Positions 5,326-26,165 of a DNA stretch of 64,000 bases are shown piece after piece (position 1 is the stretch's first letter; the number at the start of each line of letters is the position of its first letter). The translations under genes were made by a program, and so were the position numbers. The notes under the pieces were generated by a model that saw nothing but the letters and a program-made list of their open reading frames with translations, was not told the origin of the DNA and searched no databases. Source of the DNA: Paenibacillus sp. FSL H7-0357 (lineage in GTDB: Bacteria; Bacillota; Bacilli; Paenibacillales; Paenibacillaceae); the NCBI RefSeq assembly GCF_000758525.1, contig NZ_CP009241.1, forward strand, positions 7,545,501 to 7,609,500, written 5' to 3'.

Positions 5326-6729
5326 TTACTTCGCGCTGCGGTCCACAAGTTTACGAGGATCCACTTTGTTGTCCATCAGAAGCGGAGTCTTTGCACCTTT
5401 AGCAATTTGATCCCAGGCTACCACTTTAAAGTTTTGGTTAAGCTCTTTGCCATTGTTAATGTTAGAATCATCCTGTGCGATGAAAATGCCATAAGGGAAC
5501 TGTTCGCCCAGTCCGAACCCGAGTACATCAATACCATCAGTTACTGAGGTGCCATCGGTCAATGCGCCATCGGCGATATTGAAGCTAGTAAGGTAAGCGT
5601 TATTGCCTTCACGGTCATATATTGCGTAGCTGTCACTGCCTTGGCTGGAGGCGATTAAATAACCTTTGCCGTCGGCACCGTAATAGAGAGTCAACCCTTC
5701 AATATCATCCTGTAATCGGCGTCCGTCTGCAATATCGACAGTGGATAGAGGTTTTGTGCCGCTGTCAGGCTCCGCATTATATTTGTATATCGCGTAATCC
5801 TCTTCCGCTATATACATCATGCCATACTCATCATCGGCTACCATTCCTTCTGATTGCGTAGCCAGCTTAAACTCGCGAACGAGCTTACCTGAAACTTTCC
5901 CCTTCCCGTTGTCAGCCAGCTCATATTGTTCAAATTCGCCTTCTTTACCCAGAACCAGAGCGTAATACTTATCCGATTTCAGGCTATGGTAGAGGCTGAA
6001 TCCGTATACCTCTTCCATCTTCGCTTTAATGGGCTCTGCTACGATGTCAGTCAACTTTCCGGTTGCCCCGTCCATGGCAAAAATATCAACCGTGTTCGTA
6101 GAACGGTTCGTCGCGCCAACAAGATCTACTTTTTTATCGCCAAGCTGAAAATCATAACGTATATCAATATTATTCATTTTTCCTACTTTATAATTTTGAA
6201 GCTCTTTGCCGTTCAAATCATAGACGAGAACGCCTCCGCCTTTGTTCGTGGCAATGATTTTGGAATTCGCCGGGTTCGCAGAATCGAGCCAAATGGCCGG
6301 GTCATCGGCTGCATCCTCACCATCTTCAACGGCTGCCGTCTCTACCTGGGCGGTTACGGAATAAGGAGTGATGATATCAGCGGAATTGATAAACTTTGCA
6401 TTTTCCGCCAGAATAGCTTGAAGCAGCTTGGAAGGAATGTACATCGTGCCATCGACTAATTTGACCTCCGCTGGAAGCTCGCCTGCTTTACCCGCTAGAC
6501 GATATTCCTTATCGCCTGCCGTGAACGTGCCTGCGAATCCGTTCTTCAGCTTGACCAGTGCCGACTTATCGTCACTATCCCAAGTGATAGTTGCTCCGAT
6601 CCCATCCATGTGCTTGCGCAGAGGTTCATATCCTTTTAGGTCTGAGGCGGATGCTGCGTTAGTTGTTGCGGCAGGAAGTAGAGCGCCTGCAAGGAGCAGC
6701 GTAGATAGTACAGTTTCCCATGTTTTCAT
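5326..6729 (-). CDS. Secreted beta-propeller (alkaline) phytase
   Basis: A 467-residue exported enzyme that releases phosphate from phytate using Ca2+-bridged substrate sites. A signal peptide occupies about residues 1-25 (hydrophobic LLLAGALLPAATTNA). Residues about 35-110 resemble a copper-amine-oxidase-like N-terminal domain (WDSDDKSALVKLKNG ... DGTMYIPSKLL). The six-bladed propeller follows, with family motifs DDPAIWLD, TNKGGGVLVYDLNGKE, NNIDIRYDF, GATNRS, EGMVADDEYG, EEDYAIYKY and QGSDSYAIYDREG, which provide the calcium and phosphate ligands. It is longer than Bacillus phytases (about 380 residues) because of the extra N-terminal domain. It is a single-gene unit with Pho-box-like repeats upstream, fitting induction by phosphate starvation. 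Confidence 0.92.
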   Translation of the reverse strand: MKTWETVLSTLLLAGALLPAATTNAASASDLKGYEPLRKHMDGIGATITWDSDDKSALVKLKNGFAGTFTAGDKEYRLAGKAGELPAEVKLVDGTMYIPSKLLQAILAENAKFINSADIITPYSVTAQVETAAVEDGEDAADDPAIWLDSANPANSKIIATNKGGGVLVYDLNGKELQNYKVGKMNNIDIRYDFQLGDKKVDLVGATNRSTNTVDIFAMDGATGKLTDIVAEPIKAKMEEVYGFSLYHSLKSDKYYALVLGKEGEFEQYELADNGKGKVSGKLVREFKLATQSEGMVADDEYGMMYIAEEDYAIYKYNAEPDSGTKPLSTVDIADGRRLQDDIEGLTLYYGADGKGYLIASSQGSDSYAIYDREGNNAYLTSFNIADGALTDGTSVTDGIDVLGFGLGEQFPYGIFIAQDDSNINNGKELNQNFKVVAWDQIAKGAKTPLLMDNKVDPRKLVDRSAK

Positions 6730-18889: not shown

Positions 18890-19597
18890 ATGCGGGACAT
18901 TATTTTAGAAACCCAGAATCTTTGCAAGAGCTTCAAACATCAAACAGCCGTCAACAAAGTAACGTTAGCAGTACCCCGTAACTCGATCTATGGGCTCTTG
19001 GGGCCGAATGGCGCAGGTAAATCGACAACGCTCAAAATGATCGCAGGCATGCTGCGCCCCGATTCCGGGAGTATTCGTATTCATGGGCATGAATGGACAC
19101 GGAAGGATTTAAGCGAAATTGGCGTATTAATTGAGGCGCCACCGCTCTATGAGAATCTGACTGCCAGAGAGAATCTTAAGGTGCGTACGCTTGCCCTCGG
19201 ACTGCCGCAGTCCCGAATCGAGGAGACCCTCGCCGTTGTGGATTTAACCGATACCGGAAAGAAACGTGCCGGACAGTTCTCCATGGGTATGAAGCAGCGG
19301 CTGGGAATCGCGATTGCACTCTTGAACCAGCCGAAGCTGCTGATTCTGGACGAACCGACCAACGGGCTGGACCCTATCGGGATTCAGGAGCTGCGGGAGC
19401 TGATCCGTTCTTTTCCCGGGCAAGGAATCACCGTCATTCTGTCGAGTCATATTCTCTCCGAGGTCGAACAGGTAGTGGATCAGATCGGAATTATCGCCGG
19501 GGGAGTTCTGGGATATCAGGGAGCCGTTCCCCACGGGCAAGAGCTCGAAGCCTTGTTCATGCAGGTCGCCGCAGCCAACCGAAGGGCTGGTGAATAA
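18890..19597 (+). CDS. Lantibiotic-immunity ABC ATPase (LanF/SpaF/MutF type)
   Basis: A 235-residue ATPase. It has Walker A GPNGAGKST (about residue 40), the lantibiotic-specific E-loop variant seen as GVLIEAPPLYENLTAREN in place of the usual Q-loop, signature FSMGMKQRLG, Walker B LLILDEPTNGLD and switch SSHILSE. The E-loop is the diagnostic mark of LanF proteins. It is the first gene of a five-gene operon FEG-RK, and the next gene begins 2 bases after its stop. It would power expulsion of a lantibiotic from the membrane. No lantibiotic synthesis gene is in the window. Confidence 0.9.
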   Translation: MRDIILETQNLCKSFKHQTAVNKVTLAVPRNSIYGLLGPNGAGKSTTLKMIAGMLRPDSGSIRIHGHEWTRKDLSEIGVLIEAPPLYENLTARENLKVRTLALGLPQSRIEETLAVVDLTDTGKKRAGQFSMGMKQRLGIAIALLNQPKLLILDEPTNGLDPIGIQELRELIRSFPGQGITVILSSHILSEVEQVVDQIGIIAGGVLGYQGAVPHGQELEALFMQVAAANRRAGE

Positions 19598-19598
19598 C

Positions 19599-20327
19599 AT
19601 GCTTTGTCATATTAGGGCTGAACGTTTAAAATGGCGGGGCACTTTTATCCCTAAGCTTGTCTGGCTAGCACCTGTGTTCACGATGCTCCTTTGCGCCATT
19701 TTAATGGGCGGACGCTTATTTCAAAGCGGGGCTTACAACTGGTGGTACACGATGCTCTTGCCCGGAGCGCTGACCCTAACCTGTTCACTGACTCTACATA
19801 AAGACGCTAAGATGAAATACCGTGGTCTACTGGCTCTGCCTGTTGATCTGAAGACACTCTGGGCCGGGAAAATAATTGCCTGTGCGGAATGGCTATTAGT
19901 CGCTATCCTCCTGTTCCTGGTTGGCATTACGTCGGGCGGAATGTTGTTCGGCCAATCCATTCCGCTGCTGAACAGTTTGGCTGGCAGCTTCCTGATCTTC
20001 GTCACATTTCTGTGGCAGATTCCACTGTGTCTGTTCCTGGCTGCACGACTCGGATTTTTCGCCGCTGTTCTGCTTAATATGTTCGGTAATGTCATGGGTG
20101 TCGTTGCCTTCGATACCGGAGGACTGTGGGATTTTGTGCCTTATACTATTACTTTCAGGCTCATGTGCCCGGTTCTGTCGATCCTGCCGAACGGTCTCCC
20201 CGTACCGGTGGACAGTCCGCTGAGAAGCACGGAAATGATTCTTCCGGGTGCCCTGATCTCCCTGGCCTGGTTCGGATTACTTTCCCTCCTTACTGCGCTA
20301 TGGTTCCGTAAGCAGGAGGCGAAGTAA
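19599..20327 (+). CDS. Lantibiotic-immunity permease (LanE/MutE/EpiE type)
   Basis: About 242 residues with six membrane helices, opening MLCHIRAERLKWRGTFIPKL, the characteristic start of the MutE/EpiE family. The ATG at 19599 is preferred over a GTG at 19590 that overlaps the LanF stop. It would form the heterodimeric channel with LanG. It is followed by the LanG-like gene with a 1-base gap. Confidence 0.85.
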   Translation: MLCHIRAERLKWRGTFIPKLVWLAPVFTMLLCAILMGGRLFQSGAYNWWYTMLLPGALTLTCSLTLHKDAKMKYRGLLALPVDLKTLWAGKIIACAEWLLVAILLFLVGITSGGMLFGQSIPLLNSLAGSFLIFVTFLWQIPLCLFLAARLGFFAAVLLNMFGNVMGVVAFDTGGLWDFVPYTITFRLMCPVLSILPNGLPVPVDSPLRSTEMILPGALISLAWFGLLSLLTALWFRKQEAK

Positions 20328-20328
20328 C

Positions 20329-21087
20329 ATGGCTTCACTACTGGGATTGCTGAGAGCGGATCTGCTCAAAAGCCGGCATACGCCGTTTCTGCTAATTCAT
20401 CTGCTGGCTCCTCTTATCGGAGCTGGCATATTCTTAGCGTACTATTCGTACTCCCCGTGGAGTGCAACCGACAAAGCACTGGCGTTTATGCAGTCTCTAG
20501 GATGCGCATTTCCTACCCTGATCGGGCTGGTCTGCTCCATGTCGGTGGAACAGGAAGCGGCTGCAGGACAGTTTCAAAGCATGCTTGCTATACCCGCAAA
20601 CAAAATTACAACCTATATAAGCAAGCTGCTTCTCCTGCTGTTGTTTGGCTATGGAGCCGTCCTGTTTGCTTACAGCCTTTTTGGCCTGGGGTTCGGCGTG
20701 ATTTTGCAGCAGGACAGATTGGGAATGCCCTTTTACATCACCGGGGCAGTTATTCTGTTTGGCAGCAATATGTTTCTCTACCTTCTTCATCTGACAGCCA
20801 GCCTGCGCTTCGGAAGAGGCGCTTCCATCGGGGTAGGGATTGTGGGGAGTCTGGTCGCTGCCTTAATGCTTACCGGGCTAGGTGATGCCATCTGGCCGTA
20901 TATTCCCTTCGCATGGGGCGTCCGCTTCATCTCCCTGTGGACAATCCACGCTTCCGGTACGACAGTATCCCCCGCTGTATCGGGGCTGAGCACCGGAATT
21001 ACGGTCTGGCTGCTGGGAACAATACTGGCTGCTCTTCTGTGCGCTGCATGGTTCCAGCGGTGGGAAGGACGATCAACCGATAATTAG
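20329..21087 (+). CDS. Lantibiotic-immunity permease (LanG/MutG type)
   Basis: A 252-residue membrane protein with six predicted helices, starting MASLLGLLRADLLKSRHTPF, the MutG/SpaG-like amphipathic start. It has LVCSMSVEQEAAAGQFQSML after helix 2, a motif typical of this permease family. The ATG lies directly after the LanE stop and is preceded by AGGAGGCGAAGTA. LanE and LanG probably pair to form the membrane part of the transporter. Confidence 0.85.
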   Translation: MASLLGLLRADLLKSRHTPFLLIHLLAPLIGAGIFLAYYSYSPWSATDKALAFMQSLGCAFPTLIGLVCSMSVEQEAAAGQFQSMLAIPANKITTYISKLLLLLLFGYGAVLFAYSLFGLGFGVILQQDRLGMPFYITGAVILFGSNMFLYLLHLTASLRFGRGASIGVGIVGSLVAALMLTGLGDAIWPYIPFAWGVRFISLWTIHASGTTVSPAVSGLSTGITVWLLGTILAALLCAAWFQRWEGRSTDN

Positions 21088-21116
21088 ACATACAACTTAC
21101 AATCGAGGGAACGAAT

Positions 21117-21779
21117 ATGGCAAAAATACTCGTGGTAGACGATGAACCCGCCATCCTGTCGCTGATCCGCAACGCGCTTATTACTGACAATCATCTGGTG
21201 ACAACGATCTCTGATTCTACACAGGTGTGCCGGAATGACCTTGGCGCGTATGATCTTATTTTGCTGGATGTGATGATGCCGGGTGTGGACGGCTTTACAC
21301 TTTGCCGGGAAATACGCGCGGCGGTGGATTGCCCGATCCTTTTTTTAACAGCCAAAACACTGGAAAGCGATCTGATGTACGGCCTCGGACTGGGGGCAGA
21401 TGATTATATTGTGAAGCCCTTTGGCATAGGTGCGCTGCGGGCACGGATTGGCGCCCATCTCAGGAGGGAAAGCAGGGAGCGGCGGAATGTTCTATATCTG
21501 GAGAATGTACACTTCAACCTCTCCGGTAAAGAACTGTTGGTCCAAGAGGACAAAGTGCCTCTGACCAAAAGCGAATATGAAATTTGCGAATTTCTGGCCC
21601 GCAGCCGCGGACAGGTCTTCTCCAAAGAACATATTTATGAAGCGGTCTTCGGATTTGACGGAGAAAGCGACCGCAGCGCCATTACGGAGCATATCAAGAA
21701 CATCCGCGCCAAGCTGAGCAAATACGGGATCGACGCGATTGAGACTATCTGGGGGATTGGATATAAGTGGAATCTGTGA
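21117..21779 (+). CDS. OmpR-family response regulator (LanR/SpaR-like)
   Basis: A 220-residue regulator. The receiver domain (2-115) has DDE acidic residues at 8-10, the phospho-acceptor in LILLDVMMPG near 52, FLTAK and VKPFG. The winged-helix domain (125-218) contains LTKSEYEICEFLARS and DRSAITEHIKNIRAKL. It lies 30 bases after the LanG-like gene and overlaps the kinase start by 13 bases. It probably activates the FEG operon, including itself, when the kinase detects a lantibiotic. Confidence 0.9.
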   Translation: MAKILVVDDEPAILSLIRNALITDNHLVTTISDSTQVCRNDLGAYDLILLDVMMPGVDGFTLCREIRAAVDCPILFLTAKTLESDLMYGLGLGADDYIVKPFGIGALRARIGAHLRRESRERRNVLYLENVHFNLSGKELLVQEDKVPLTKSEYEICEFLARSRGQVFSKEHIYEAVFGFDGESDRSAITEHIKNIRAKLSKYGIDAIETIWGIGYKWNL

Positions 21780-23164
21780 AACGAATCAAAACAGTGCGCC
21801 TTCGCACCTTTTTCCTGCAATACCTCTTGTTCTTAAGCACAGGGACGATTCTGCTGCTGGTGCTTGTACTTGGCTTGTTCACACTGGCGTTTTCCTCCAA
21901 TATTATACTGCCTGCTAACTATGCCGAGAAGGAGATTACTGCGTTCAAGGAGCGTCTTGCCTCAAGCAGAACAGTAACGCCCGATAGCGTTCCGGGAATG
22001 GTAGATTATACGGTTTTCACCCAGGAAGGAGAACTTCTCGCCGGTAATCTGAGCCGGAGTGAAGCAGCACATGCCTGGGAGATTATACAGCAAGGCAATA
22101 CTCAGGACTCTCATTTCTATACAACCGCCCAGCACGGACAGGAGATCTGGATATTCCGGTATAGCTTAACACCGCAGTATGCATCCTCCTTGCTGCGCAG
22201 CTATCTGCCGAATCCTCAGCTGCTGGGAGTGCTGCTCTTCATCTTGGGAATTTTGCTCCAAGCGGCCTTGCTTGCTGCCCGGTTCGGCAGAAAACTCACG
22301 GAGAAAATGGCAGGATTACAGGAAGCGACAGAGAACATCCAGCGCGAGAATCTTGAGTTTACCGTCAAGCCCAGCGGTATCCGCGAAATCGACGATGTGC
22401 TGGTCTCACTGGACCGGATGAAAGAAGCCCTGCACACTTCACTTAAGCGGCAGTGGGAGCTGGAGCGTTCCCGCAGAGAGCAGATTTCCGCGCTGGCCCA
22501 CGATATCAAAACCCCGCTTACCGTCATTCGGGGAAATGCGGAGCTGCTGCAGGAGACGACACAGAATGCTGCCCAGCTGGAATATAACGGATACATTCTT
22601 CGCAGCGCCGAGGATATTGAAGCCTTCGTACAAGAGGTTATTGATCTGTCCAGCATGCAGGCCAGCTTTGTTCGTCAGAAATCGCTGGTAAGTACAGCGG
22701 AGATTCTTGGAGAATTAGAGCTGCAGATGAAGGCTCTGTCCTCCGGCAAGGACCTGCATACGCTTGTCCATAAGGATACTCTTCCAGCATTTCTTTTTAT
22801 AGATAAGGAGCTGTTTCAGCGGGGCATCATCAATGTCATCGCCAATGCGGTCGAGCATACGCCTCCGCAGGGGAGCGTTGCTTTGCTGGTCCGGGGGGAT
22901 GACGCTGCTGTTCATTTCACGGTTACGGATACGGGGAACGGCTTCTCGCCAACCGATCTGAAAGAAGCCGCCACCCAGTTCTACAGAGGGGACCAGAGCC
23001 GAAGCTCCGGCAATCATCACGGGATGGGGCTGTACATTGCCGAGTCCGCCGCCCAGCAGCATGGAGGGAGCTTAACTATAGCAAATATGTCCTCCGGCGG
23101 AGGGAAGGTGACTATGAGCATTCCTGTTTCTACGGGAGTCAGGGATGGTTATGGGCAGGAGTAA
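21767..23164 (+). CDS. Sensor histidine kinase (LanK/SpaK-like)
   Basis: A 465-residue membrane kinase. Two helices (about 15-42 and 148-170) flank a roughly 105-residue extracellular domain. A HAMP-like linker follows, then HisKA (SALAHDIKTPLTVI, H about 245) and HATPase (NVIANAVEHTP, DTGNGF, GMGLYIAES). The start is a GTG at 21767 overlapping the response regulator; a second GTG at 21776 is possible. The extracellular domain length fits direct sensing of a peptide, unlike the kinase at 12331. It ends the immunity operon. Confidence 0.88.
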   Translation: MESVKRIKTVRLRTFFLQYLLFLSTGTILLLVLVLGLFTLAFSSNIILPANYAEKEITAFKERLASSRTVTPDSVPGMVDYTVFTQEGELLAGNLSRSEAAHAWEIIQQGNTQDSHFYTTAQHGQEIWIFRYSLTPQYASSLLRSYLPNPQLLGVLLFILGILLQAALLAARFGRKLTEKMAGLQEATENIQRENLEFTVKPSGIREIDDVLVSLDRMKEALHTSLKRQWELERSRREQISALAHDIKTPLTVIRGNAELLQETTQNAAQLEYNGYILRSAEDIEAFVQEVIDLSSMQASFVRQKSLVSTAEILGELELQMKALSSGKDLHTLVHKDTLPAFLFIDKELFQRGIINVIANAVEHTPPQGSVALLVRGDDAAVHFTVTDTGNGFSPTDLKEAATQFYRGDQSRSSGNHHGMGLYIAESAAQQHGGSLTIANMSSGGGKVTMSIPVSTGVRDGYGQE

Positions 23165-24207: not shown

Positions 24208-24231
24208 TAGGGCACCCGATTGGATGCCCTA
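24208..24231 (-). terminator. Hairpin downstream of the AraC/lipoprotein unit
   Basis: TAGGGCA pairs with TGCCCTA around a 10-base loop, followed on the minus strand by the weak tract TAATTTTG. It lies about 50 bases beyond the stop at 24282. Confidence 0.5.
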
Positions 24232-24281: not shown

Positions 24282-25202
24282 TTAGAGGCTTGTCAGCCAG
24301 GCTGCCAATTCTTCGGTCTGGCTCAGAATAGCTATCGGGTCCCAGTAGCCAGAGCGATCACTTGTCCATAAAAACACATGATCATTTTTGACTGCTGGAA
24401 GCGCCCCCCAGATCGGGTCTGCTTTGAGTTCATCCAGCGTTTCCGAATCGGAGGTCAGTATAATATAATCTCCCGCATACTTTGGCAATACTTCCGCAGA
24501 GAATGAAGCCCAGCCGGGATCGGCCATTTCGGCTGTGACAGCCGCTGGAGGCTTAAAGCCGAATCCATTGTATACCGGCTGTCCGCCTTTACCGAAGCCG
24601 GTTCCGACAGCCATCAAGCTTTTTTCACTCATTTCAATAACTGAAAATGTGCTGTCTGCAGGTATAACCTTCAATACGTCTTCTTTGGCACTGGCGGTAC
24701 GTGTGTCATAATCGGCAAGCCAGGCCTTCGCCTTTTCTTCTTGGCCAAGCAGCTCGCCGAAATATGCGACCTCCTCATGTACCGTTTTTAAGGAAGCGTA
24801 CGGAATGACGACAATAGGCGCTATTTTTGACATCTGCTCATTCAGCTCAGGATAGAAGTCATCCATAATAATCAAGTCCGGTTCAAGCGATAAGATTTTC
24901 TCTACATTGCCATTACCGTCCCCTATATTATCAACATCTTTCAAATATTCCTGGAAGTAAGGATTTTTAATATGATGATCGGATGTTCCGATGGGTGTAA
25001 TGCCAAGCGCAATAAGACTACCAAGATACTCCCCCGCAACGATTCGTTTCGGATGAAGCGGTACCTCTACATCACCGTTAACCGTTGTAACGATTTTGGT
25101 CTGCGGCTGCTCCACAGCATCATTCGTGCCGCATGCGCTCAGCATCAGAATGAAGCTTAGCAGCAATACTGATGCCAGCGTAGGCCTTGAATGTTTAAAC
25201 AT
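24282..25202 (-). CDS. Internal gene: Fe3+-siderophore-binding lipoprotein
   Basis: The alternative start ATG at 25202 is preceded by AGAGAGGGAGATTCATTC, a canonical ribosome site, and gives a 306-residue lipoprotein. The order is n-region KHSR, hydrophobic core, lipobox LSACG (Cys24), then a periplasmic-binding-protein class III fold typical of iron-siderophore receptors. It would sit on the outer face of the membrane and deliver ligand to an FecCD-type permease encoded elsewhere. Its own promoter and Fur box lie 30 to 85 bases upstream, within the AraC coding frame. Iron repression is therefore expected. Confidence 0.75.
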   Translation of the reverse strand: MFKHSRPTLASVLLLSFILMLSACGTNDAVEQPQTKIVTTVNGDVEVPLHPKRIVAGEYLGSLIALGITPIGTSDHHIKNPYFQEYLKDVDNIGDGNGNVEKILSLEPDLIIMDDFYPELNEQMSKIAPIVVIPYASLKTVHEEVAYFGELLGQEEKAKAWLADYDTRTASAKEDVLKVIPADSTFSVIEMSEKSLMAVGTGFGKGGQPVYNGFGFKPPAAVTAEMADPGWASFSAEVLPKYAGDYIILTSDSETLDELKADPIWGALPAVKNDHVFLWTSDRSGYWDPIAILSQTEELAAWLTSL

Positions 25203-26165
25203 GAATGAATCTCCCTCTCTGATACCATGATACTGATAATCGTTATCAATGATATTAGTATAGTTAAATGGTTCAGGAGGGACAATGGAGGATTCCATGG
25301 TTATGGCAGGACAATCTTCTAGTATCTTCTTGCCGGCATGCACTTCTCTATAACGAATTGGAGAAACACCCTTGTATTTTTTGAACAGCCTGCCCAAATA
25401 GCTTGGGTCTTGATAGCCGATGCCCTCAGCAATTTCCTTCAGTGTAGCATCTGTTTCAAGCAGCAGTGCCGCTGCCTTATCCATGCGCACCTTGATTAAG
25501 TAGTCAATTGGGCTAAGCCCTGTACGGATTTTAAAATAAGAGGATAAATGGGGAATGCTGTAATTCACGCTTTCCGCCAGTGATTCCAGCGTAATAGACT
25601 CCGCATAATGTTCATGGATAATAGCGGCGACCTGAGCTGCCAAATCACGTTTCGCCGGGCTTACACCGTGCACCTGTATTTGATGAAGCAGATCATGCAC
25701 AAACTGATAGAGTAAGGTCCGAACGCGCAGATGCACAAGTGGTTTCTGTTTCTCCCACTCCTTGAACATTTCACTCAATATCCGATGCAGCGCTACCGGG
25801 CTGCCCGGCGTTATACTGTACGAATGATCAAAGGAACGAGCCGGATCCAATAATGCGGCAAGCTCTGCGGGTACCGGAGGGTTCATACTCACTTTATAAT
25901 AAACGCTATAATAATCCATGCCTTCGCTGCCCGCGACTATGTTGAGTACATCACCTTTACCTGCATGAAGCACTGTGAACCGCTGCAGGCGATGAAATTG
26001 CTCTCCCAGATAAGCTGTAGCCTTGCCGCGAACCGACATGAGAAACAGGTTTGAGGGTACAGAATAGGAACGAATGGATTCGCCAGCGCTAATCGTGGTG
26101 CGGCGAATATCTATGACTTTGCAATTCGCGTGATTCCAAGAAACCATAAGATCATTGATGTCCAT
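24282..26165 (-). CDS. AraC-family regulator fused in frame to a siderophore-binding lipoprotein
   Basis: A single 627-codon frame. Residues 1-170 form an AraC-type sensing domain and 178-276 the double HTH (ESITLESLAESVNYSIPHLS ... IGYQDPSYLGRLFKKYKGVS). Residues 277-321 are a linker. At Met322 a lipoprotein signal peptide begins, with lipobox LSACG (Cys345), followed by a FhuD/FeuA-like substrate-binding fold (HPKRIVAGEYLGSLIALG ... EKILSLEPDLIIMDDFYPEL). Bacillus Btr is a known AraC-binding-domain fusion, but there the binding domain lacks a signal peptide. Here a ribosome site, promoter and Fur box lie inside the linker, so two products are likely (inference): the long protein and a separate lipoprotein. 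Uptake permease genes are absent nearby. Confidence 0.8.
   Translation of the reverse strand: MDINDLMVSWNHANCKVIDIRRTTISAGESIRSYSVPSNLFLMSVRGKATAYLGEQFHRLQRFTVLHAGKGDVLNIVAGSEGMDYYSVYYKVSMNPPVPAELAALLDPARSFDHSYSITPGSPVALHRILSEMFKEWEKQKPLVHLRVRTLLYQFVHDLLHQIQVHGVSPAKRDLAAQVAAIIHEHYAESITLESLAESVNYSIPHLSSYFKIRTGLSPIDYLIKVRMDKAAALLLETDATLKEIAEGIGYQDPSYLGRLFKKYKGVSPIRYREVHAGKKILEDCPAITMESSIVPPEPFNYTNIIDNDYQYHGIREGDSFMFKHSRPTLASVLLLSFILMLSACGTNDAVEQPQTKIVTTVNGDVEVPLHPKRIVAGEYLGSLIALGITPIGTSDHHIKNPYFQEYLKDVDNIGDGNGNVEKILSLEPDLIIMDDFYPELNEQMSKIAPIVVIPYASLKTVHEEVAYFGELLGQEEKAKAWLADYDTRTASAKEDVLKVIPADSTFSVIEMSEKSLMAVGTGFGKGGQPVYNGFGFKPPAAVTAEMADPGWASFSAEVLPKYAGDYIILTSDSETLDELKADPIWGALPAVKNDHVFLWTSDRSGYWDPIAILSQTEELAAWLTSL
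25234..25285 (-). promoter_or_regulatory. Sigma-A promoter with Fur box inside the AraC-lipoprotein frame
   Basis: On the minus strand, TTGTCC (25285-25280) and TATACT (25262-25257) are 17 bp apart. The 15-bp dyad TGATAACGATTATCA (25248-25234) follows, matching the Fur 7-1-7 consensus TGATAATNATTATCA at 14 of 15 positions and overlapping the expected transcript start. The ribosome site and ATG of the lipoprotein follow about 20 bases later. Confidence 0.8.

Follow-up and report, generated by a model that had tools for sequence, protein, structure and literature searches.

How can one open reading frame encode both a transcriptional regulator and a transport lipoprotein, and what is an apparently complete promoter doing within its codons? 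The question is raised by a gene on the minus strand of a 64,000-nt stretch of the Paenibacillus sp. FSL H7-0357 genome (contig NZ_CP009241.1, positions 7,545,501 to 7,609,500; this whole stretch is called the window below). The frame starts with ATG at window position 26165, runs to 24282 and encodes 627 residues followed by a stop. A sequence-only reading of the locus had described it as an AraC regulator fused in frame to a complete lipoprotein precursor with its own promoter, and the Pfam domains, the 627-codon frame and its wide recurrence in relatives bear out the fusion. We consider it likely that this is one gene with two products, a siderophore-responsive activator and a transport lipoprotein, the latter made from a nested, Fur-gated and probably self-activated promoter. 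The parts of the frame are the following.

24282..26165, minus strand: long frame of AraC-type regulator, linker, lipoprotein signal peptide and siderophore-binding domain (open reading frame, Pfam, full-length relatives)
25344..26165, minus strand: AraC half, residues 1-274, with an N-terminal beta-rich domain and two helix-turn-helix motifs (Pfam, AlphaFold2 secondary structure)
24282..25202, minus strand: nested frame, a lipoprotein precursor of 306 residues plus stop from an internal ATG at codon 322 (open reading frame)
25131..25202, minus strand: lipoprotein signal peptide, residues 322-345, with lipobox LSAC345 (Cys345 codon at 25133-25131)
24357..25037, minus strand: FhuD-like siderophore-binding domain, residues 377-603 (Pfam PF01497, PDB matches, fold)

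Both halves are recognised well above the Pfam gathering scores: HTH_18 (AraC/XylS) at residues 196-274 with 75.1 bits (gathering score 33.6), and Peripla_BP_2 (PF01497) at residues 377-603 with 100 bits (gathering score 27.5). The nearest PDB sequences to the C-terminal half are 3hxp and 3g9q, both FhuD/YxeB-type, and structure comparison shows that its predicted fold resembles FhuD2 as well as these two YxeB-family entries; the fold suggests a ferric siderophore as the ligand. Between the halves lie a linker of about 45 residues (277-321) and the signal segment (322-345), which is the most hydrophobic part of the 627-residue protein and the dominant hydrophobic segment between the two halves. 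In the AlphaFold2 model both halves are confident, residues 280-327 have a pLDDT (predicted local distance difference test score) below 50, and a helix spans residues 329-344. No stop codon closes the AraC half, so that whenever it is translated in full the product also has the signal segment and, at its C-terminus, the siderophore-binding domain.

Could the fusion be an accident of this strain or of its assembly? The sequence-only reading had allowed that the intergenic region had simply lost its stop codon here. We rejected both this explanation and an assembly error, given the full-length relatives at 78–85% identity in other assemblies (P0002-P0010; L031-L033) and the recurrence of the fusion in other genomes. 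Two further copies of the fused architecture lie in the window's own genome, and together with those relatives they make an assembly or sequencing error in the window next to impossible.

A protein search returned 204 relatives at E <= 0.001, and among the 120 of them that were listed 114 had at least 560 residues; most are named in the databases as ‘AraC family transcriptional regulator’ or as iron-complex substrate-binding protein. This search favours full-length proteins. The AraC half (residues 1-274) was also used alone as query, against 30 relatives and then against 118 genomes of the family (E <= 1e-32). In the 30 relatives, the 29 best matches lay in frames of 581–718 codons, one with an internal TGA, and the first unfused match (289 codons) came at E = 4e-29. 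Matches were found in 37 of the 118 genomes, 163 in all. For the 150 that were listed, the frame was 600 codons or longer in 141, had 549–599 codons in 4 and fewer than 500 in 5, with the open frames of 600 codons or more persisting down to about 30% identity; these frames were judged by length, not one by one, and in some of the shorter ones the signal peptide may be missing. As a side observation, an unfused AraC relative of 289 codons (G013:C1:3515755-3516507) lies about 4 kb from a fused gene.

A set anchored on the substrate-binding-protein (SBP) half, by a pattern taken from it, comprised 80 named loci: 58 fused (including L212, which on inspection has no signal peptide), 20 separate (including L164, a frame-change case) and 2 unclassified, namely L171, which is in several pieces, and L201, a 606-codon fused frame missing part of the SBP. 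In named genomes the fused form was found in Paenibacillus, Cohnella, Brevibacillus, Lysinibacillus and Saccharibacillus. Two fused genes stand side by side in 9 of 63 stretches (L078, L096, L106, L109, L113, L114, L115, L117 and L119).

The sequence-only reading had also considered that most relatives might stop just after the AraC domain. One of the 150 listed matches does so cleanly: in L234 (1093-3190) the AraC frame ends in the first half-site of the direct repeat described below, and a separate lipoprotein follows. The other frames below 500 codons are L232, with a frame change in the linker, and L233, L235 and L236, which are broken or partly deleted. L050 and L164 change frame in the signal-peptide region and L228 is interrupted. 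All broken frames (L050, L164, L171, L228, L232-L236) were counted as found, unmended.

What keeps the linker in place, its protein or its DNA? The nested elements proposed in the sequence-only reading, a promoter, a Fur box and a ribosome site before an internal ATG, are all present.

25257..25285, minus strand: nested promoter TTGTCC-17 bp-TATACT (pattern scan and conservation over 98 genes)
25234..25248, minus strand: Fur box TGATAACGATTATCA, read in frame as DNDYQ (13/14 specified positions)
25211..25214, minus strand: Shine-Dalgarno-like GGAG, 8 nt 5' of the internal ATG (25202)

Taken by itself, the promoter pattern is at chance level, with 7 sites in 2.8 kb vs 4.4 +/- 1.9 in shuffles, and we accept it as above chance because it is conserved across fused genes. 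Pattern scans for promoters and terminators were dropped as sole evidence, neither being clearly beyond shuffles. Conservation was followed in 98 distinct fused frames (profile score >500, 600–740 codons), a sample that took in 60 of about 71 further fused matches; 37 representatives below 70% identity served for the trees and for part of the repeat statistics. Codon conservation was defined as the frequency with which pairs of sequences that agree in a residue also agree in its codon. Its mean over 603 columns was 0.41, and the ten highest columns reached 0.91–1.00. These ten (residues 284, 285, 294, 302, 303, 305, 306, 307, 309 and 310) all fall within linker residues 284-310, where synonymous positions are nearly frozen. 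With the -10 codon as anchor, an ungapped set of conserved bases emerges: a half-site GATNGTCC starting at -54, a second half-site ATCNTCCATTG ending at -21, the TTG of the -35 element from -23, 17 bp, and then TATANT. The Fur box, of the 7-1-7 type, lies 3' of the -10, and the spacing between the two differs among genes by multiples of three nucleotides.

For the Fur box, the sequence-only reading gave 14/15 and we count 13 of 14 specified positions. At least 13/14 positions match in 92 of the 98 linkers, a level that synonymous resampling of the same peptides reaches in 36%, and the linker box is the best Fur match of the whole frame in 93/98. Its reading frame is identical in 98/98 and the distance from its end to the internal start is 25, 28 or 31 nt. 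Among the 95 linkers with at least 12/14, the most variable base of the palindrome is its unconstrained centre, which yields D, H or Y at codon 309. The internal start column holds ATG, GTG or TTG in 97/98, and a Shine-Dalgarno match of at least 4 nt is found at the internal start in 92 of 97 genes vs 223 of 1278 other ATGs in those frames. The claim of a complete lipoprotein precursor holds equally well across the set: Cys345 and the lipobox pattern are present in 98/98, the net charge of the n-region is +1 to +4 in 94 and 0 in 4, and the signal is the most hydrophobic stretch in 97. The conserved nested set supports and strengthens the proposal that the locus would make two products.

Outside the elements the linker has a dN/dS (ratio of nonsynonymous to synonymous rates) of 0.63 and a pS (proportion of synonymous differences) of 0.33 vs 0.54 in the AraC half, values which cannot separate constraint on the protein from constraint on the DNA. 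The linker is predicted by AlphaFold2 to be disordered and it is therefore mainly the DNA that seems to be under conservation; the promoter in its DNA seems to be the main reason why the peptide is conserved. A Fur box of at least 12/14 also lies within 300 nt upstream of the long frame in 57 of the 98 relatives, where iron may control both products. Upstream of the window's own long frame no Fur box was found, the best match being 7/14.

These results bear on another explanation, namely that two genes merely miss their separating stop, so that the fusion is functionless and the AraC and lipoprotein parts act separately. A disordered linker conserved mostly at the DNA level would agree with this, as would the L234 split pair, which has a like promoter layout. 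On the other hand, frames of at least 600 codons are open in 141 of the 150 listed matches though the alternative frames of the linkers have stops (the +1 frame in 86 and the +2 frame in all of the 98), and the signal-less members described below keep the fusion though they are without a nested lipoprotein signal. We therefore consider a functionless fusion highly improbable. At the same time, some points count against the two-product reading: the 98 genes were chosen for open frames, so that their absence of stops is by construction, and the stop question is unbiased only in the AraC- and SBP-anchored searches, with counts among the matches listed; moreover, the L234 split retains a like -10, Fur box, Shine-Dalgarno sequence and ATG.

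What, then, might activate the nested promoter? The linker also holds a direct repeat, which was not part of the sequence-only reading.

25305..25316, minus strand: distal direct-repeat half-site GATTGTCCTGCC, probable AraC-type operator (conserved block, repeat at offset 22)
25283..25294, minus strand: proximal direct-repeat half-site AATCCTCCATTG, overlapping the -35 (conserved block, repeat at offset 22)

AraC/XylS regulators bind half-sites arranged as direct repeats, spaced by some two helical turns and close to the -35; where the AraC protein activates, the inner half-site of the pair is expected to overlap the -35. Within a gene, 7.4/12 positions of the repeat match on average at an offset of 22 bp, whereas 30 other offsets average 3.0 and do not exceed 4.1. 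Read by eye, lineages with unusual half-sites alter both half-sites and carry unusual recognition helices: TGCC half-sites occur with an SR(S/T)FKK helix in 5/5 representatives (four SRSFKK, one SRTFKK), and TGACAT half-sites with SLSR in the first helix in 2/2 representatives. The operator pattern has one exact match in the window's genome, which is this linker, and in a profile scan of the loci in the sample sites scoring >20 were found only in fused linkers or in the broken one of L050. The direct repeats are probably the operator of the regulator itself.

Several observations weigh against this assignment. The window's own half-sites agree at just 5/12 positions (hand count). The TGCC and TGACAT groups are each a single related lineage in the tree, so that the agreement between helix and half-site amounts to one change per group; LGRMFKK, common to the TGACAT pair, is found in L031 as well, where the half-sites are ordinary. 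Covariation of the half-sites was matched in strength by 0/10000 shuffles, in a shuffle that ignores relatedness, and of five covariation control windows the one at -66 beat all shuffles (0/2000) and the one at -70 nearly did so (19/2000). Finally, the genome holds 21 further matches to the operator pattern at 1-2 mismatches vs 5 for the reversed pattern. Separately, we noted in L111, around position 5685 and thus downstream of its fused gene, what may be one more operator half-site with a promoter and a Fur box.

How would such a gene work? Transcription from upstream would give the long 627-residue protein, a putative siderophore-responsive activator, which would most likely be membrane-held, with its AraC half inside and its binding domain outside. 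The linker promoter, with its own Shine-Dalgarno sequence and ATG, would be the source of the free transport lipoprotein of 306 residues, made in the larger amount. The conserved Fur box suggests that iron-loaded Fur would close the nested promoter, and we infer from it, soundly in our view, that iron would decide the ratio of the two products, as the sequence-only reading had proposed. Under iron limitation, with the cognate siderophore in the binding domain of the long form, the AraC domains would bind the 22-bp direct repeats and, as the operator layout suggests, with the inner one over the -35 they would switch on the promoter in their own gene. A single binding domain would then be both sensor and transport receptor. 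As a guess, Fur bound within the long transcription unit might also block upstream transcripts in iron-rich cells. In its most specific form, this reading describes a membrane-anchored AraC activator, held by the signal peptide of its own receptor, that would read the siderophore outside and fire a Fur-gated nested promoter via an operator in its own linker codons; we put it forward tentatively, as something that falls a little short of being an even bet.

Is the gene simply a Btr? Btr (YbbB) is the AraC-type siderophore regulator of Bacillus subtilis, and Btr-like regulators in the genomes studied here have about 530-580 codons and no signal peptide, and are often followed by a separate lipoprotein gene. 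In 11 of their intergenic regions inspected by eye, several show a promoter, a Fur box and a Shine-Dalgarno sequence in the same order. The profile of the fused family skips the linker and signal-peptide stretch in Btr-like frames. Against the NCBIfam Btr model (NF049932, an equivalog) the window's protein scores 105 bits, and the curated cut-off of 900 is not reached. An AraC-domain tree was built from 21 Btr-like, 37 fused and 6 signal-less rows. The 21 Btr-like rows fall on one side of a branch (support 100/99) and the fused and signal-less ones on the other, in agreement with the contrast that the sequence-only reading had drawn with Btr-type fusions. The gene would work like Btr and is outside the Btr group, because it stays below the cut-off, falls in another clade and has a signal peptide; on its sequence, it is a variant among siderophore one-component regulators, in a clade apart from the Btr-like ones.

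Must the long form sit in the membrane at all? The 6 signal-less members fall among the fused ones in the AraC-domain tree and retain the AraC-SBP fusion. A separate lipoprotein gene is present in 6/6 signal-less stretches (7.8-8.9 kb) vs 10/63 stretches with signal-bearing fusions (mostly 9.5 kb), with a hypergeometric probability of 7e-5 that ignores relatedness, three of the six being near-copies. This fits a division of labour in which a separate lipoprotein would step in once a fused gene has lost its nested one. An SBP tree, with 8 separate lipoproteins and 1 Btr row among its rows, groups the signal-less L212 regulator with its neighbouring lipoprotein.

Two results tell against membrane anchoring. 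Loss of the signal segment takes at least two changes in the AraC-domain tree, and therefore membrane tethering is not essential for such regulators; and the AlphaFold2 model, with a pTM (predicted template-modelling score) of 0.46, gives no relative placing of the two halves. The signal-less members could instead speak for a cytosolic, Btr-like sensor, in which the signal is unused in the long form and kept for the short product while the binding domain inside senses imported ferric siderophore. Besides these members, each with its separate signal-bearing lipoprotein, the grouping of the L212 regulator's SBP with that of its neighbour would favour such a sensor. However, a complete lipoprotein signal, as found in practically the whole set of 98, would be expected to insert. 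In addition, a regulator of the same clade in L225 (2862-4728, minus strand) keeps its hydrophobic segment although its lipobox Cys is lost (AHA) and a separate lipoprotein lies in the stretch, a hint that the membrane segment may be of importance for the regulator's own function. A cytosolic sensor is possible, if on the unlikely side.

Another alternative is a processing switch. Here the exported long form would be cut, by signal peptidase II at Cys345 or by a protease in the linker, and the AraC part would be freed in the manner of the chlamydial repressor YtgR. The linker is predicted to be disordered and the lipobox is intact, both of which would suit cleavage, and YtgCR provides a precedent (PMC7755916). 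Cleavage at Cys345, however, would leave the AraC part on a membrane-embedded signal stub, and we think a processing switch unlikely.

The surroundings of the gene add one weak feature.

24208..24231, minus strand: terminator-like hairpin with a T-rich tail, 3' of the gene (weak)

This was the 1 terminator-like site found vs a mean of 2.7 in shuffles of the region, i.e. chance level. The nearest FecCD permease listed in the genome is about 1.1 Mb from the window's gene. A fused paralog in the same genome (C1:5867726-5869621, in L230, C1:5863500-5873500) is directly followed by two FecCD permease genes, and the nested promoter of this paralog could drive the whole transporter. Elsewhere in the window, at 19590-23164 on the plus strand, two membrane-protein frames, a response regulator and a histidine kinase follow one another and, from their translations alone, resemble a peptide-sensing transporter cluster.

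What does the locus mean more generally? A whole bacterial promoter, with candidate operator pair, -35, -10, Fur box, ribosome site and start, lies conserved and in frame inside a coding linker, and the codon constraint of such a promoter can be measured base by base. The arrangement suggests a simple way of keeping sensor and receptor matched in ligand, namely by using the same domain, and it marks out a clade of regulators apart from the Btr-like ones. If the transmembrane reading is true, it would describe a class of AraC one-component regulators that act across the membrane and are distinct from Btr, with protein linker, operator, promoter, Fur box and ribosome site on shared bases. The locus also makes two ideas testable: that an AraC protein senses across the membrane, and that the balance between two nested products is set by Fur bound within the gene. 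In the titles and abstract beginnings of open-licence literature we found no description of this nested-promoter regulator-receptor layout.

How does the gene compare with known systems? With Btr it shares an AraC helix-turn-helix part followed by a siderophore-binding domain in one protein, and the genomes studied here also contain Btr-like genes next to a lipoprotein gene. The Btr-like genes differ in having no signal peptide and a short stretch between the parts, with the lipoprotein as a second gene behind an intergenic promoter. Our statements on Btr draw in part on PMC9609785. The C-terminal half is like FhuD/YxeB-type lipoproteins in fold, Pfam domain and lipobox, but here the precursor is the in-frame C-terminal part of a regulator.

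ToxR/CadC-type proteins are membrane-spanning one-component regulators with a winged-helix DNA-binding domain. The predicted order of a cytosolic DNA-binding part, one membrane helix and an outer sensor part is the same here, whereas the DNA-binding part is an AraC-type HTH_18 instead of a winged helix, a lipobox stands at the end of the helix, the sensor would be the transport receptor, and a promoter is nested in the gene. To our knowledge, the nearest known precedent for a transport part fused to an iron regulator is YtgCR of Chlamydia. There, an ATP-binding cassette (ABC) permease and an iron-dependent repressor share one frame, and the repressor, YtgR, is freed by cleavage (PMC7755916). 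The likeness lies in the in-frame fusion of an iron-dependent regulator to a transport component, and the difference in the domains involved and in the release of a repressor by cleavage.

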